Below are positions 5,113 to 10,124 of a DNA stretch of 35,827 nucleotides, piece by piece (position 1 is the first letter of the stretch; every line of letters begins with the position of its first letter). Below the pieces are notes generated by a model. That model did no database searches. It was not told the origin of the DNA and worked only from the letters and a program-made list of their open reading frames with translations. Origin of the DNA: an uncultured Veillonellaceae bacterium. Lineage in GTDB: Bacteria > Bacillota > Negativicutes > Veillonellales > Negativicoccaceae. The stretch is taken from assembly GCA_945876385.1 (NCBI GenBank), contig CAMCNU010000012.1, forward strand, positions 1 through 35,827, read 5' to 3'. Position numbers and translations under genes: made by a program.

Positions 5113-5141
5113 TTGACAGGTGCGATAAAGTTTGGTATACT
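5113..5141 (+). promoter_or_regulatory. Strong sigma-70 promoter of the serine operon
   Basis: Perfect -35 TTGACA (5113-5118), 17-base spacer, extended -10 TGg-TATACT (5136-5141). A second TTGACA begins at 5106. Transcription should start near 5148, at the head of the T-box leader. Confidence 0.85.
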
Positions 5142-5326
5142 GCCGATAATAAGTCAACGCAAAGAAGGAGAATATCCGCAGTGGATGGTGCAGAGAGCAG
5201 GCGGTCGGTGTGAGCCTGTACAGACACGGCGAGGTTCCGCTCCGGAGCGGCAAATGATGAGTTTGACGGGTGCGCCCGATACCGCGCGACAAAGATGGCC
5301 GTACGGTCAATTTGGGTGGCACCGCG

Positions 5327-5360
5327 AATTCTCGTCCCAATGGGGAACGAGAATTTTTTT
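5327..5360 (+). terminator. T-box terminator 1
   Basis: AATTCTCGT (5327-5335) pairs with ACGAGAATT (5347-5355), extended by CCC/GGG, followed by seven T. It shares CTCGTCCC with antiterminator 1, so the two structures exclude each other. Confidence 0.9.
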
Positions 5361-5408
5361 GCGGCGGCATCGAGATATACCGACGGCAATCGGGGTGGTA
5401 CCGCGAGA

Positions 5409-5444
5409 AAGAGAAGCTCGTCCCTGGGGGAGGCTTCTCTTTTT
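5409..5444 (+). terminator. T-box terminator 2
   Basis: AAGAGAAGC (5409-5417) pairs with GCTTCTCTT (5433-5441), with Ts continuing to 5444. It shares CTCGTCCC with antiterminator 2. The serC ribosome binding site AGGAGG follows at 5451. Confidence 0.9.
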
Positions 5445-5463
5445 GTATACAGGAGGTCAGATG

Positions 5464-6537
5464 ATGAAACGGGCGTACAATTTTAATGCGGGGCCGGCGG
5501 CTTTGCCGGAGGAAGTGCTGGTGCAGGCGGCAGCGGAGATGACGGATTATCGCGGCACGGGGATGGGAGTCATGGAGCTCAGCCATCGCAGTGCGGAATA
5601 CGATGCCTTGCATGAGCAGGCGCGGGCGGACTTGCGCGAGCTGTTGGCGATACCGGACGACTTTGCGGTGATGTTCGTGCAGGGCGGTGCCAGTCATCAA
5701 TTTATGATGATACCGGCGAACTTGGCCATGGGGCGTCCGACGGGATATGCCGATACGGGTGTCTGGGCGCAAAAAGCGATGCAGGAAACGGGACTGTACG
5801 GACAGCCGTACAAGATTTGCGATGCCGCGCCGGGCGGGTATCGCGATATACCGGCATGGGGAGCGGTCGAAGCCGATACCGCTTATGTCCACATCACGAC
5901 GAACAATACGATTTACGGCACGCAGTATCGGGAGATTCCCGCAGTCTCCGTGCCGGTGGTAGCGGACATGTCGAGCGATATCGCCTCCCGCCCGATTGAT
6001 TGGACGAGAGTCGCCGCCGTCTATGCGGGCACGCAGAAAAATCTCGGTCCGGCCGGGATGGCGGTCGTCGTGATGCACCGCGACCTCATTCGCACGGGCA
6101 ACGCCCGCCTGCCGAAAATCCTGCAGTATCGGACGTATGCGGACAACCGCTCGCTTTACAACACGCCGCCGTCGTATGCGATTTATATCTTGGGGCTGGT
6201 GCTGGACTGGATGAAGCGCCAAGGCGGCGTTGCGGAAATGGAGCGGCGCGCCCGGGTGAAGTCGCAATTGTTGTATACGGTCATCGACCGCTATCCGGAG
6301 GTCTTTGTCGGTCATGCCCGGCCGGAGGCGCGCTCGTTGATGAATGTGACCTTTACCCTGCGCGATCGCGCGCAAGAAGCGGTGTTTGTTGCGGCGGCCA
6401 AGGCGCAGGGATTCGTCGGGGTCAAGGGGCATCGCCTGGTCGGCGGGCTACGGGTGTCGCTGTACAACGCGGTACCGCAGGCGGCGGTCGAAGCGCTGGC
6501 GCAATGGATGACGGCATATGCCGAGGCACAGGCCTAA
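5464..6537 (+). CDS. serC: Phosphoserine aminotransferase
   Basis: 357-residue class V PLP aminotransferase that converts 3-phosphohydroxypyruvate and glutamate to phosphoserine. It has the family N-terminus YNFNAGPA, the PLP lysine Lys192 in GTQKNLGPAG, and the C-terminal GHRLVGGLRVSLYN phosphate-binding segment. The gene opens with ATGATG; 5464 is preferred over 5461 because AGGAGG at 5451-5456 is then seven bases away. It is the first gene after the double T-box, so it is expected to be induced when tRNA-Ser is uncharged. serA begins ten bases after its stop. Confidence 0.96.
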   Translation: MKRAYNFNAGPAALPEEVLVQAAAEMTDYRGTGMGVMELSHRSAEYDALHEQARADLRELLAIPDDFAVMFVQGGASHQFMMIPANLAMGRPTGYADTGVWAQKAMQETGLYGQPYKICDAAPGGYRDIPAWGAVEADTAYVHITTNNTIYGTQYREIPAVSVPVVADMSSDIASRPIDWTRVAAVYAGTQKNLGPAGMAVVVMHRDLIRTGNARLPKILQYRTYADNRSLYNTPPSYAIYILGLVLDWMKRQGGVAEMERRARVKSQLLYTVIDRYPEVFVGHARPEARSLMNVTFTLRDRAQEAVFVAAAKAQGFVGVKGHRLVGGLRVSLYNAVPQAAVEALAQWMTAYAEAQA

Positions 6538-6547
6538 GGAGGATATG

Positions 6548-8140
6548 ATGACGGAAAAAATATTGGTAGCGGACGGCGTTTCGGCGTGGGGCGTCGAAAT
6601 CTTACAGCAGGAATATGAAGTCGTTGAACGGCCGCAACTGACGGCGGAAGAGCTTGCGGCCACCATCGGCGACTATGTCGCCATCGTGGTACGCAGTGCG
6701 ACCCGTCTGACGGCCGATGTACTCGCCAAGGCGACGCGCCTGCGGGTCATCGGTCGCGCGGGAGTCGGCGTGGACAATATCGACATCCCGGCGGCGACGA
6801 AACGGGGGATTGTCGTGTTGAATGCGCCGAACGGCAACACCAACGCGGCGACGGAGCATGCACTGGCGCTGATGCTGGCTTTGGCGCGGCGGATTCCCGA
6901 GGCGGATGCCTCGTTGCGTGCGGGACGCTGGGAACGCGCGCACTTGGTCGGCTTGGAATTGAAAGGCCGTACCCTCGGCGTCCTCGGTCTGGGACGAATC
7001 GGGACGGGGGTCGCCTTGCGGGCGCAGGCATTCGGCATGGACGTCATCGCCTACGATCCGTTTTTGACGGCAGAACGCGCCGCCCAACTCGGCGTGCGCA
7101 AGGGGACGCTGGCCGAGGTGCTGGCGGCGGCCGATTTCCTGACGTTGCACCTGCCGTTGACGGACGACACGCGCGGCTTGATTAATCGGCAGACCATCGC
7201 CGCGATGAAAGACGGCGTGCGCATCATCAACGCGGCACGCGGGGCCTGCATCGTCGTCGACGATTTGGTCGAGGCGCTCCGGTCGGGCAAGGTCGCCGGC
7301 GCGGCGCTCGACGTATTTCCGACGGAACCGCTCGCCGCGGACAGCCCGCTGACGACGCTTCCGCAAGTGGTACTCACGCCGCACTTGGGGGCGTCGACCG
7401 TGGAAGCACAGGAAGGGGTGGCGGTCGATGTGGCGCGCGGGATTTTGCAGGCCTTGCGCGGTGAAGTCGTGCCCGCGGCGCTCAATGTCGCACCGATCGC
7501 ACCGGAATTGATGCCGATATTGACACCGTACTTTCCGCTGGCCCGCGCACTCGGCAACTTGGCCGTCGGGCTGGCACAGGAACCGATTCGGATGTTGACG
7601 GTCGAGTATACGGGTGAGCTTGTCGCGCCCGATACGCGTGCGGTGACGACGACGGCGGTACAGGGACTGCTCAATCCGATTTTGCAAGAGCAGGTCAATC
7701 AGGTCAATGCCGCGGCGCTGGCGGCGGAGCGCGGCATCGAAGTGCGCGAGGTCAAATCCGCCCGCTTGGGTGCGTATCATCAGGCGCTGGCGGTGGAAAT
7801 CACCACGGCCGAGCAGACGCATCGCCTGGTCGGTGTCTTGACCGACGGAGAACCGTATGTCGTGGAAATTGATGCGTATGACATCCGCTTTGCCCCGCGC
7901 GGTCAGTTGCTCTTGGTGCCGCATGACGATTGCCCCGGGATGATCGGTAAAATCGGGACGGCACTCGGTGAAGCCGGGGTCAATATCCGCAGTATGCAGG
8001 TCGGCCAGACCGCGAAGGCGGGGAAAAATATCATGGCTATCGGAGTGGATCGGACGGTCACGCCGGCCTTGCGCCGGACACTGGAAGCGATTGCGGGGGT
8101 AGATGCGGTGTCCGTCATCAGCGGAGAGGGGCGAATCTGA
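6548..8140 (+). CDS. serA: D-3-phosphoglycerate dehydrogenase
   Basis: 530-residue enzyme for the first step of serine synthesis, oxidising 3-phosphoglycerate with NAD. Order: substrate-binding segments, NAD-binding GLGRIG (147-152), catalytic Arg231 (NAARGA), Glu260 (DVFPTEP) and His279 (TPHLGAST), an intervening regulatory domain (about 315-450) and a C-terminal ACT domain (about 453-530, starting near GQLLLVPHDDCPG). This is the long form; the ACT domain usually binds serine for feedback control. AAGGAGG lies before an ATGATG; the second ATG has the better spacing. The stop overlaps the next start (TGATG). Confidence 0.96.
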   Translation: MTEKILVADGVSAWGVEILQQEYEVVERPQLTAEELAATIGDYVAIVVRSATRLTADVLAKATRLRVIGRAGVGVDNIDIPAATKRGIVVLNAPNGNTNAATEHALALMLALARRIPEADASLRAGRWERAHLVGLELKGRTLGVLGLGRIGTGVALRAQAFGMDVIAYDPFLTAERAAQLGVRKGTLAEVLAAADFLTLHLPLTDDTRGLINRQTIAAMKDGVRIINAARGACIVVDDLVEALRSGKVAGAALDVFPTEPLAADSPLTTLPQVVLTPHLGASTVEAQEGVAVDVARGILQALRGEVVPAALNVAPIAPELMPILTPYFPLARALGNLAVGLAQEPIRMLTVEYTGELVAPDTRAVTTTAVQGLLNPILQEQVNQVNAAALAAERGIEVREVKSARLGAYHQALAVEITTAEQTHRLVGVLTDGEPYVVEIDAYDIRFAPRGQLLLVPHDDCPGMIGKIGTALGEAGVNIRSMQVGQTAKAGKNIMAIGVDRTVTPALRRTLEAIAGVDAVSVISGEGRI

Positions 8141-8778
8141 TGGTACGGTTGTGGTTGGGTCGGCACGGCGAGACGGAGTGGAATCTCCAAGGCCGTTACC
8201 AGGGACAGGTCGATACGGCGCTTTCGCCGCGCGGTATCGAGCAAGGGAACGCATTGGCGCGGGCACTCGAGGACGTGCATTTGGATGCGGTCGTATCGAG
8301 TCCGCTCTCGCGGGCGCTGCAGACGGCGGCGGGCGCGGCGCGCGATCACGGTCTGACGCCCGTGACGGATGCGCGCTGGACGGAGATTCACCATGGCGAG
8401 TGGGAAGGCCGTTACAGCGCGGATATCGCCCGCACGGACGGCGCGCGGCTGGAGGCGTGGCGGACGGCACCCGAGACCGTCACCATGCCGGGCGGCGAAT
8501 CGCTGGCGGATGTGCGGGCGCGCGTACGAAGTGCGCTGGCGGAGTATATCGACCGCTACGACGGGCAAACACTGCTGGTCGTAGCGCATGACGCGGTGAA
8601 CAAAGTCCTGCTGGCGGATATATTGGGACTGACGCCGGCGCATTTTTGGCAGTTCAAGCAAGATAACGGCTGTCTCAACCTGCTGGAATACGAGGCCGGC
8701 ATCTGGCGCATCGTGACGCTCAACGCGACCGCGCATCTGGGGTATCTGTGCAGCGGTATCGAACAGCGGGGACTGTGA
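8140..8778 (+). CDS. Histidine phosphatase family protein, candidate phosphoserine phosphatase
   Basis: 212-residue member of the phosphoglycerate-mutase-like superfamily. The phosphate-accepting His9 lies in GRHGETEWN, with Arg8, Arg58 (SSPLSRA), Glu82 (TEIHHGEWEG) and the second histidine His150 (VVAHDAVN) all present. It overlaps serA by one base and sits between serA and serS under a serine T-box. No SerB-type (HAD) phosphatase is seen in this window. A metal-independent phosphoserine phosphatase of this superfamily is known in Hydrogenobacter, so by context this is the likely last step of serine synthesis. Alternatives are a cobalamin-pathway (CobC-like) phosphatase or a general phosphatase. 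Confidence 0.85.
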   Translation: MVRLWLGRHGETEWNLQGRYQGQVDTALSPRGIEQGNALARALEDVHLDAVVSSPLSRALQTAAGAARDHGLTPVTDARWTEIHHGEWEGRYSADIARTDGARLEAWRTAPETVTMPGGESLADVRARVRSALAEYIDRYDGQTLLVVAHDAVNKVLLADILGLTPAHFWQFKQDNGCLNLLEYEAGIWRIVTLNATAHLGYLCSGIEQRGL

Positions 8779-8840: not shown

Positions 8841-10124
8841 ATGTTGGACATGAAATTGATTCGGGAAGAGCCGCAACGGGTGCGGGAAAACTTGGCGCAT
8901 CGCCATCACGAGGCGGATGTGGACATGCTGCTGGAGCTGGATGCGCGGCGGCGGGACATGCTCGTCGAAGTGGAAGCGTGGAAGCAGGAACGCAATCGCG
9001 CGAGCAAGGATATTGCCGCGAAAAAACGGGCGGGCGAAGACGCTACGGCCGAGATTACCGCGATGAAACAACTGGGTGAGGATATCGCCGCCCATGACGC
9101 CGAGCTGCGGGAGATTGAGAGCGAGCTCCATGCGGCGATGCTGCGGCTGCCGAATATGTGTGCGCCGGATGTACCGGTCGGCGCGGATGAAAACGATAAT
9201 GTGGAAATCCGCCGTGTCGGCACACCGCCGACCTTTGCACAAGAGCCGCTCGCACATTGGGATATCGGGGCAAAGCTCGGGATTTTGGATCCGGAGCGGG
9301 CGGCCAAAGTCACTGGCGCGCGGTTTCATTTCTACGTCGGTCTCGGTGCCAAACTCGAACGCGCGGTCTACAATTTCATGCTGGATATGCACACGGAAGA
9401 ATTCGGCTTTCAAGAGATGATACCGCCGTACCTCATCAATGCCGACAGCATGACGGGGACGGGGCAGCTGCCGAAGTTTGCCGAAGACATGTTCAAGGTG
9501 GAAGGCCTGCCCTATTACTTGACGCCGACGGCGGAAGTGCCGCTGACGAATTATCACCGCGACGAAGTGCTGGACGCCGACCGGTTGCCGGAGCGGTTGT
9601 GCGCCTTTACGCCCTGCTTTAGGGCGGAAGCGGGCTCGGCGGGACGTGATACGCGCGGTCTGATTCGCCAGCACCAATTCCACAAAGTGGAAATGGTCAA
9701 ATTTGCCAAGCCGGAAGAGTCCTACGCCGAGCTCGAACAGATGACGGCGGAAGCGGAAGAAATCCTCAAGCGCTTGGGACTGGCGTACCGGGTCATTGTC
9801 CTGTGTACCGGTGATATCGGCTTTTCCGCCGCCAAGACCTACGACGTGGAAGTGTGGATGCCGTCGCAGCACAAATATCGCGAGATTTCCTCGTGCTCCA
9901 ATTGCGAGGACTTCCAAGCGCGTCGCGCCAATATCAAGTACCGGCCGGCGCCGCAAGCCAAAGCGGAATACCTGCACACGCTGAACGGATCGGGACTGGC
10001 CGTCGGGCGGACGGTGGCCGCGATTTTGGAAAACTACCAGCAACCGGACGGCTCGGTCCGGATTCCGGAGGTATTGCAACCGTATATGCACGGGCGGACG
10101 GTCATCCCCGCACCGACAGTATAA
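8841..10124 (+). CDS. serS: Seryl-tRNA synthetase
   Basis: 427-residue class II aminoacyl-tRNA synthetase. The N-terminal helical arm (about 1-105, charged coiled coil) contacts the long variable arm of tRNA-Ser. The catalytic core has motif 1 near residues 185-200 (ends in MIPPYLIN), motif 2 in [18 protein letters not shown], and motif 3 in [17 protein letters not shown]. The ribosome binding site is weak (GAGGG about ten bases upstream). It ends the serine cluster, which puts tRNA charging next to the genes that sense uncharged tRNA. No terminator separates it from the upstream phosphatase gene. A hairpin follows. Confidence 0.97.

Follow-up and report, generated by a model that had tools for sequence, protein, structure and literature searches.

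In 2008, Vitreschak et al. reportedly announced, as a structural class, T-boxes in which the terminator-antiterminator elements are duplicated. Partially tandem T-boxes are mentioned in a review, where their mode of action is listed as unknown (PMC7583486). Double T-boxes, it has been suggested, 'might function cooperatively leading to a sharper response' (PMC9413887), and work on pseudo-cooperative tandem riboswitches indicates that a serial arrangement can steepen response curves (PMC9481103). Among leaders specific for tRNA-Ser, those preceding serC in C. thermocellum and D. hafniense are canonical Ser T-boxes with a UCC specifier (cited in PMC8002221). The leader described here has an architecture that has already been described, and belongs to the partially tandem T-boxes. 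However, three features reported below, namely the apparently old duplication, the asymmetry of the variable bases and a leader with three modules, may be undescribed so far.

The window, that is the whole stretch of DNA analysed, comprises 35,827 nucleotides from an uncultured Veillonellaceae bacterium, and all of the features listed here lie on its + strand. The serC operon leader (about 5148–5444) is a tRNA-Ser T-box with one Stem I and two antiterminator/terminator modules. Upstream of it, a consensus scan located a sigma-70-type promoter (5113–5141; 11 of 12 matches) made up of TTGACA at 5113–5118, a 17-nt spacer and TATACT at 5136–5141. Homologous leaders have a TTGACA/TATAAT-like pair at the equivalent place, and transcription is expected to start near 5148. 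Stem I (5153–5249, corresponding to RF00230 positions 1–104) includes an AGAGA loop (5192–5196) and a UGxRA loop (UGUGA, 5209–5213) as its distal loops, and the specifier UCC (Ser, 5236–5238), which is aligned in homologues of the leader. The Stem II/IIA-B region and Stem III (5250–5311, with the Stem III hairpin at 5296–5309) follow, as placed by the Rfam alignment and a fold of 5296–5314.

Two T-box cores are present, GGGTGGCACCGCG at 5314–5326 and GGGTGGTACCGCG at 5393–5405, and a search of the window that allowed one mismatch to GGTGGYACCGCG located no other site. Both are exact matches, and they lie 79 nt apart and not 78 as originally stated. Because a shuffled sequence contains a mean of 0.71 matches to GGTGGYACCGCG when one mismatch is allowed, the motif alone is weak evidence, and the case for two modules stands on structure and on homologues. 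The helices named for the two antiterminators, TTGGG/CCCAA in the first and GGGG/CCCT in the second, are present, and the latter extends to CGGGG/CCCTG. Antiterminator 1 (5312–5340, also identified by Rfam) has the bulge UGGCACC at 5317–5323 and a constrained fold of −7.0 kcal/mol, and antiterminator 2 (5391–5426) has the bulge UGGUACC at 5396–5402, a partial Rfam match and a constrained fold of −10.8 kcal/mol. Each module also has a terminator and T tract of its own, as had been claimed. Terminator 1 (5327–5360) consists of a hairpin at 5327–5355, with a predicted energy of −15.0 kcal/mol, and a tract of seven Ts (5354–5360); terminator 2 (5406–5444) ends in five Ts (5440–5444) and is predicted at −17.1 to −20.2 kcal/mol, depending on the length of T tract included. 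In both modules the two structures are predicted to be mutually exclusive, with the antiterminator the weaker (−7.0 versus −15.0 kcal/mol, and −10.8 versus −17.1 kcal/mol). Neither terminator was picked up by a generic terminator scan because both stems contain bulges. Pairing across the modules, between the 3′ arm of terminator 1 and the 5′ arm of module 2, is possible but was not adopted, as it yields −11.5 kcal/mol in this leader versus −22.6 kcal/mol for the proper partner.

A search of Rfam at gathering thresholds did not recover the leader because it scores below the cut-off. Its first match to RF00230 (5153–5342, 84.2 bits, E 6.1e-19) covers the whole length of the model, and the gathering score is 93. 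The second match (5388–5425, 24.7 bits, E 0.0013) covers model positions 183–216 only, namely the antiterminator. Full tandem T-boxes occur widely in Bacillota (PMC12452182), and one with a hidden or degenerate second Stem I was considered as a rival reading. However, near T-box 2 the antiterminator part alone was matched, and only 32 nt (5361–5392, ending in ACGGCAATCG) separate T tract 1 from T-box 2, in agreement with the predicted 30 or so bases that would be too short for a Stem I. Hence, a second Stem I is excluded and more than one antiterminator/terminator module lies behind a single Stem I. The spacing between the T-boxes, which is 69–95 nt in 33 of 34 two-module UCC leaders, also argues against the full tandem reading, which is refuted by the anatomy of this leader and to which we assign next to no probability.

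The genes downstream make up an operon for serine synthesis and seryl-tRNA synthetase. A Shine-Dalgarno-like AGGAGG (5451–5456) precedes serC (phosphoserine transaminase, 5461–6537; NCBIfam NF003764, E 1.3e-138, over the cut-off), which is followed by serA (phosphoglycerate dehydrogenase, 6518–8140; TIGR01327, E 1.8e-182, over the cut-off; the true start is probably 6545 or 6548), a gene for a histidine-phosphatase-family protein (8140–8778) and serS (seryl-tRNA synthetase, 8841–10124; TIGR00414, E 2.2e-167, over the cut-off). The best match of the third product is to the phosphoserine phosphatase PspA (NF045917, E 2.5e-46, below the cut-off) and, if it is a phosphoserine phosphatase, the serine pathway would be complete in one operon together with serS. 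A TTG-start open frame of 474 codons (5113–6537) spans the entire leader and continues into serC, and automatic annotation could thus place the serC start wrongly, inside the riboswitch.

The genome (1.52 Mb) includes a tRNA-Ser(GGA) gene with the 3′ end CUCUCC-G-CCA, and hence G73, and the TGA and CGA tRNA-Ser isoacceptors have G73 as well. Together with the UCC specifier and a serine operon that includes serS, this supports tRNA-Ser as the ligand. Both bulges match the tRNA-Ser discriminator. The variable base is C in module 1, where UGGC pairs fully with GCCA, and T in module 2, where UGGU forms three pairs and a G-U wobble with G73. The original prediction had allowed the T to face either an A discriminator or a G-U wobble. 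A comparison of leaders, in which kinship is ignored and weight was put on the direction of the contrasts and not on p-values, found C at this position of module 1 in 26 of 32 UCC leaders versus one of 41 other leaders, and at this position of module 2 in 17 of 32 versus 0 of 41. The 41 other leaders are mostly for tRNAs with A73. As C in module 2 is found in UCC leaders only, the T in this leader is better read as a wobble with G73 of tRNA-Ser than as a site for a tRNA with A73. The C that was proposed to fit G73 and the wobble are both supported, and the A73 option is disfavoured. The tRNA-Trp usually has G73, yet three of the four Trp leaders within the 41-leader set use T, and T at the variable base hence appears to be permissive, while C appears to point to G73. 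Trp and Asn leaders from outside the class have C in both modules.

In order to establish how widespread the arrangement is, genomes were searched for a pattern consisting of a T-box, 20–50 nt, TTTT, 15–45 nt and a second T-box. The pattern is present in 29 of 60 relatives (10 of 13 genera) and, in a slightly wider form, in 86 of 380 genomes of the class (35 of 102 genera), and a reversed control pattern found no match in the same 380 genomes. Related Negativicutes, where it was suggested that the layout be sought, do therefore have it. An unselected search for serC recovered 30 leaders with upstream sequence, of which 18 have two T-box motifs and 12 have one; when six leaders obtained with the two-module pattern are added, 24 of 36 are two-module. 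The claim that this layout is much less usual than full tandem T-boxes thus calls for correction, since such leaders form a described class and are common in the class to which this bacterium belongs. No match to the double-module pattern was found in the 189 genomes of one family (f24, G158–G346), though it is common in neighbouring families, and within the family of the window the nearest relative (G001) has two modules, while G002 and G003 have one. The leader types among the matches, assigned by specifier (by eye) and downstream gene, include Ser (serC), Phe (an SSS-type symporter, a TrpX-type ABC protein and DAHP synthase), Tyr, Trp (trpD) and Ile/Leu/Val (liv-type ABC). A version of the pattern with a C-type first box returned 14 loci among 84,980 species genomes, and these include four Phascolarctobacterium bins, two Nosocomiicoccus, Bacillota and Chloroflexi bins, and a Veillonellaceae MAG with a leader identical to that of G001; some precede genes that, judged by eye, are trp, asparaginyl/aspartyl-tRNA synthetase-like or acetolactate synthase-like.

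Two further arrangements were seen among these leaders. One leader (L018; G033:C13:9547-9741, locus 1501–1700) has three T-box/terminator modules in series behind one Stem I with a CTC (Leu-type) specifier, and lies upstream of a gene for a branched-chain amino-acid-type substrate-binding protein. Among the Phe-type leaders L019–L040 (e.g. L023 and L032), the short-spaced partial tandems (57–69 nt) have a terminator 1 that seems to use the T-box itself as its pairing partner, GGGTGGTACC with a GGTACCACCC-like 3′ arm in place of the usual antiterminator 3′ arm.

The possibility that one module alone senses tRNA, the other acting as an ordinary attenuating terminator or being a duplicate in decay, was weighed against the conservation of both. 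Module 2 is absent or lost in 12 of the 30 serC leaders, and the bulge of module 1 is commonly UGGCAAC or UGGUAUC instead of the consensus UGGNACC (UCC leaders L046–L070), and both observations speak for this possibility. However, the non-consensus bulges are also found in single-module leaders, in many of which UGGCAAC is the sole bulge and so presumably functional. In addition, the T-box, the antiterminator pairs and co-varying terminators are kept in both modules across several families. Both terminator hairpins are retained in all 34 two-module UCC leaders, the weakest having −11.2 kcal/mol in module 1 and −13.4 kcal/mol in module 2. When anchored terminator arms were paired with their own partner or with partners from other leaders, the own partner was the better in module 1 (−18.1 versus −16.2) and in module 2 (−22.2 versus −17.5), with 0 of 2000 permutations reaching the observed mean in either case, though kinship is ignored and again the direction is what carries weight. 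The two A2 pairs adjoining the T-box are kept in 31–32 of 32 UCC leaders in both modules, and the outer pairs of antiterminator 2 co-change within the family of the window (TT/AA in most, TC/GA in G001 and CG/TG here). Counts of antiterminator pairs alone were not above shuffles in the UCC leaders because these pairs hardly vary, and were above shuffles in other leaders, and RNAalifold found no consensus in MAFFT alignments of the short modules. Hence, on comparative grounds, both modules appear to be under selection. The finding that only UCC leaders have C at the variable base of module 2 also counts against a single sensing module, and if one of the terminators were beyond antitermination, the operon would be shut off. 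We regard this explanation as unlikely.

The origin of the second module was examined using a tree of the modules, in which first and second modules separate into two groups across families, apart from a few misplaced short sequences that include module 1 of the window, and in which every single module groups with module 1. The similarity between the two modules of one leader (0.669) hardly differs from that between modules 1 and 2 of different leaders (0.668). These two results together indicate, as far as such short sequences allow, that the duplication is probably old and that module 2 has been lost repeatedly. The linker ends in ACGGCAATCG, which is similar to the 3′ half of Stem III, and the closest relative has GACGGCAATTT ahead of T-box 1, while many leaders have GGCAAATT or GGCAATTT ahead of both T-boxes. 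This similarity would be accounted for if part of the leader was duplicated in tandem and the 5′ breakpoint lay in Stem III.

The leader is therefore likely to be a transcriptional tRNA-Ser T-box with a duplicated decision domain, in which charging is examined at two serial checkpoints that mainly tighten the OFF state. Stem I would capture tRNA-Ser(GGA) via the UCC specifier, and RNA polymerase would then meet two serial terminators, each opposed by an antiterminator that, in this model, is stabilised only by the uncharged tRNA 3′ end (GCCA). Uncharged tRNA would be read twice before serC-serA-phosphatase-serS is transcribed, and leak would be multiplied down, giving a tighter OFF state. We infer that the two modules are both active in the cell and that one tRNA, held by Stem I, is used twice, its 3′ end probably being set free once terminator 1 has refolded behind the polymerase; the benefit would then lie chiefly in tightness and not in steepness. 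If one and the same tRNA is read at both checkpoints, readthrough would be x·p1·p2 + (1 − x)·l1·l2, where x is the occupancy by uncharged tRNA, p success and l leak, so that fold induction would be multiplied and the dependence on x would remain linear. If the tRNA is exchanged between the checkpoints, the response would be the product of two curves, and steeper. The 'two-step lock' envisaged originally fits this model. The steeper response offered with it is not an automatic consequence of the layout because the single tRNA held by the one Stem I may serve both modules, multiplying the suppression of leak with no added cooperativity.

In glyQS, binding via the anticodon only lasts about 4 s, and full binding lasts >24 s, enough for the transcription of >1000 nt (PMC6197855). 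With about 80 nt between the two decisions, the tRNA should therefore remain bound, which favours the case of a single tRNA, and a hand-off problem arises since its 3′ end must leave T-box 1. By analogy with glyQS, the tRNA would, in the absence of active release, still be on T-box 1 as the polymerase reaches terminator 2, and this counts against the two-checkpoint explanation. So do the U in module 2, which forms only a wobble with G73, and the leaders of some close relatives (G002 and G003) and of many others, which manage with one module and show the second to be dispensable. The same long residence would hold a first tRNA on T-box 1 and leave T-box 2 to the 3′ end of a second, giving a steeper response like that of full tandem T-boxes, and steeper curves are possible with serial riboswitches (PMC9481103). 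However, a second Stem I was not found using Rfam and, in glyQS, anticodon recognition by Stem I comes first and docking of the 3′ end after (PMC6197855), so that unassisted docking is expected to be weak. We consider the use of two tRNAs improbable, slightly more so than a single sensing module.

Reuse of one tRNA at two checkpoints would be helped by terminator 1, which at −15.0 kcal/mol is predicted to be far more stable than antiterminator 1 (−7.0 kcal/mol) and could evict the tRNA 3′ end once the polymerase has passed. A more specific form of this idea, which we hold only tentatively and think rather less likely than not to be correct, is that Stem I holds a single tRNA-Ser throughout, which is first probed at T-box 1, then let go as terminator 1 folds behind the polymerase, and probed once more at T-box 2. 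If so, the leader would proofread the charging state of one tRNA twice per transcription event, and module 1 would be tuned for release in UCC leaders, where antiterminator 1 has the less stable predicted fold of the two in 26 leaders and the more stable one in six, and UGGCAAC or UGGUAUC is frequent. In non-Ser leaders the order of energies is reversed, module 2 being more stable in 12 and less stable in 27, and the weaker module 1 of UCC leaders is therefore a hint only.

These leaders form a natural series, with one or two modules ahead of serC, three in a leucine-type transporter leader, and variable bases switched between modules. The series allows one to ask what a second module brings, be it tightness, steepness or proofreading, and whether two decision sites can share one tRNA. 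Its value is as a conserved test case for a mechanistic question and not as a new type of switch. Like the partially tandem T-boxes, this leader has several T-box/antiterminator/terminator modules downstream of a single Stem I, two in this case, and it shares with canonical Ser T-box leaders a tRNA-Ser ligand, genes for serine synthesis and transcription attenuation. The serA leader of P. polymyxa, in contrast, is described as having a single decision module and an AGC specifier (PMC8002221), where two modules and UCC are found here. Full tandem T-boxes likewise make two serial T-box decisions before one operon (PMC9413887, PMC12452182), but each decision has its own Stem I, whereas here one Stem I serves both. 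Similarly, pseudo-cooperative tandem riboswitches, TPP riboswitches among them (PMC9481103), make two serial transcription decisions on the same ligand, but with a sensor for each expression platform, whereas in the serC leader two platforms share one sensor.
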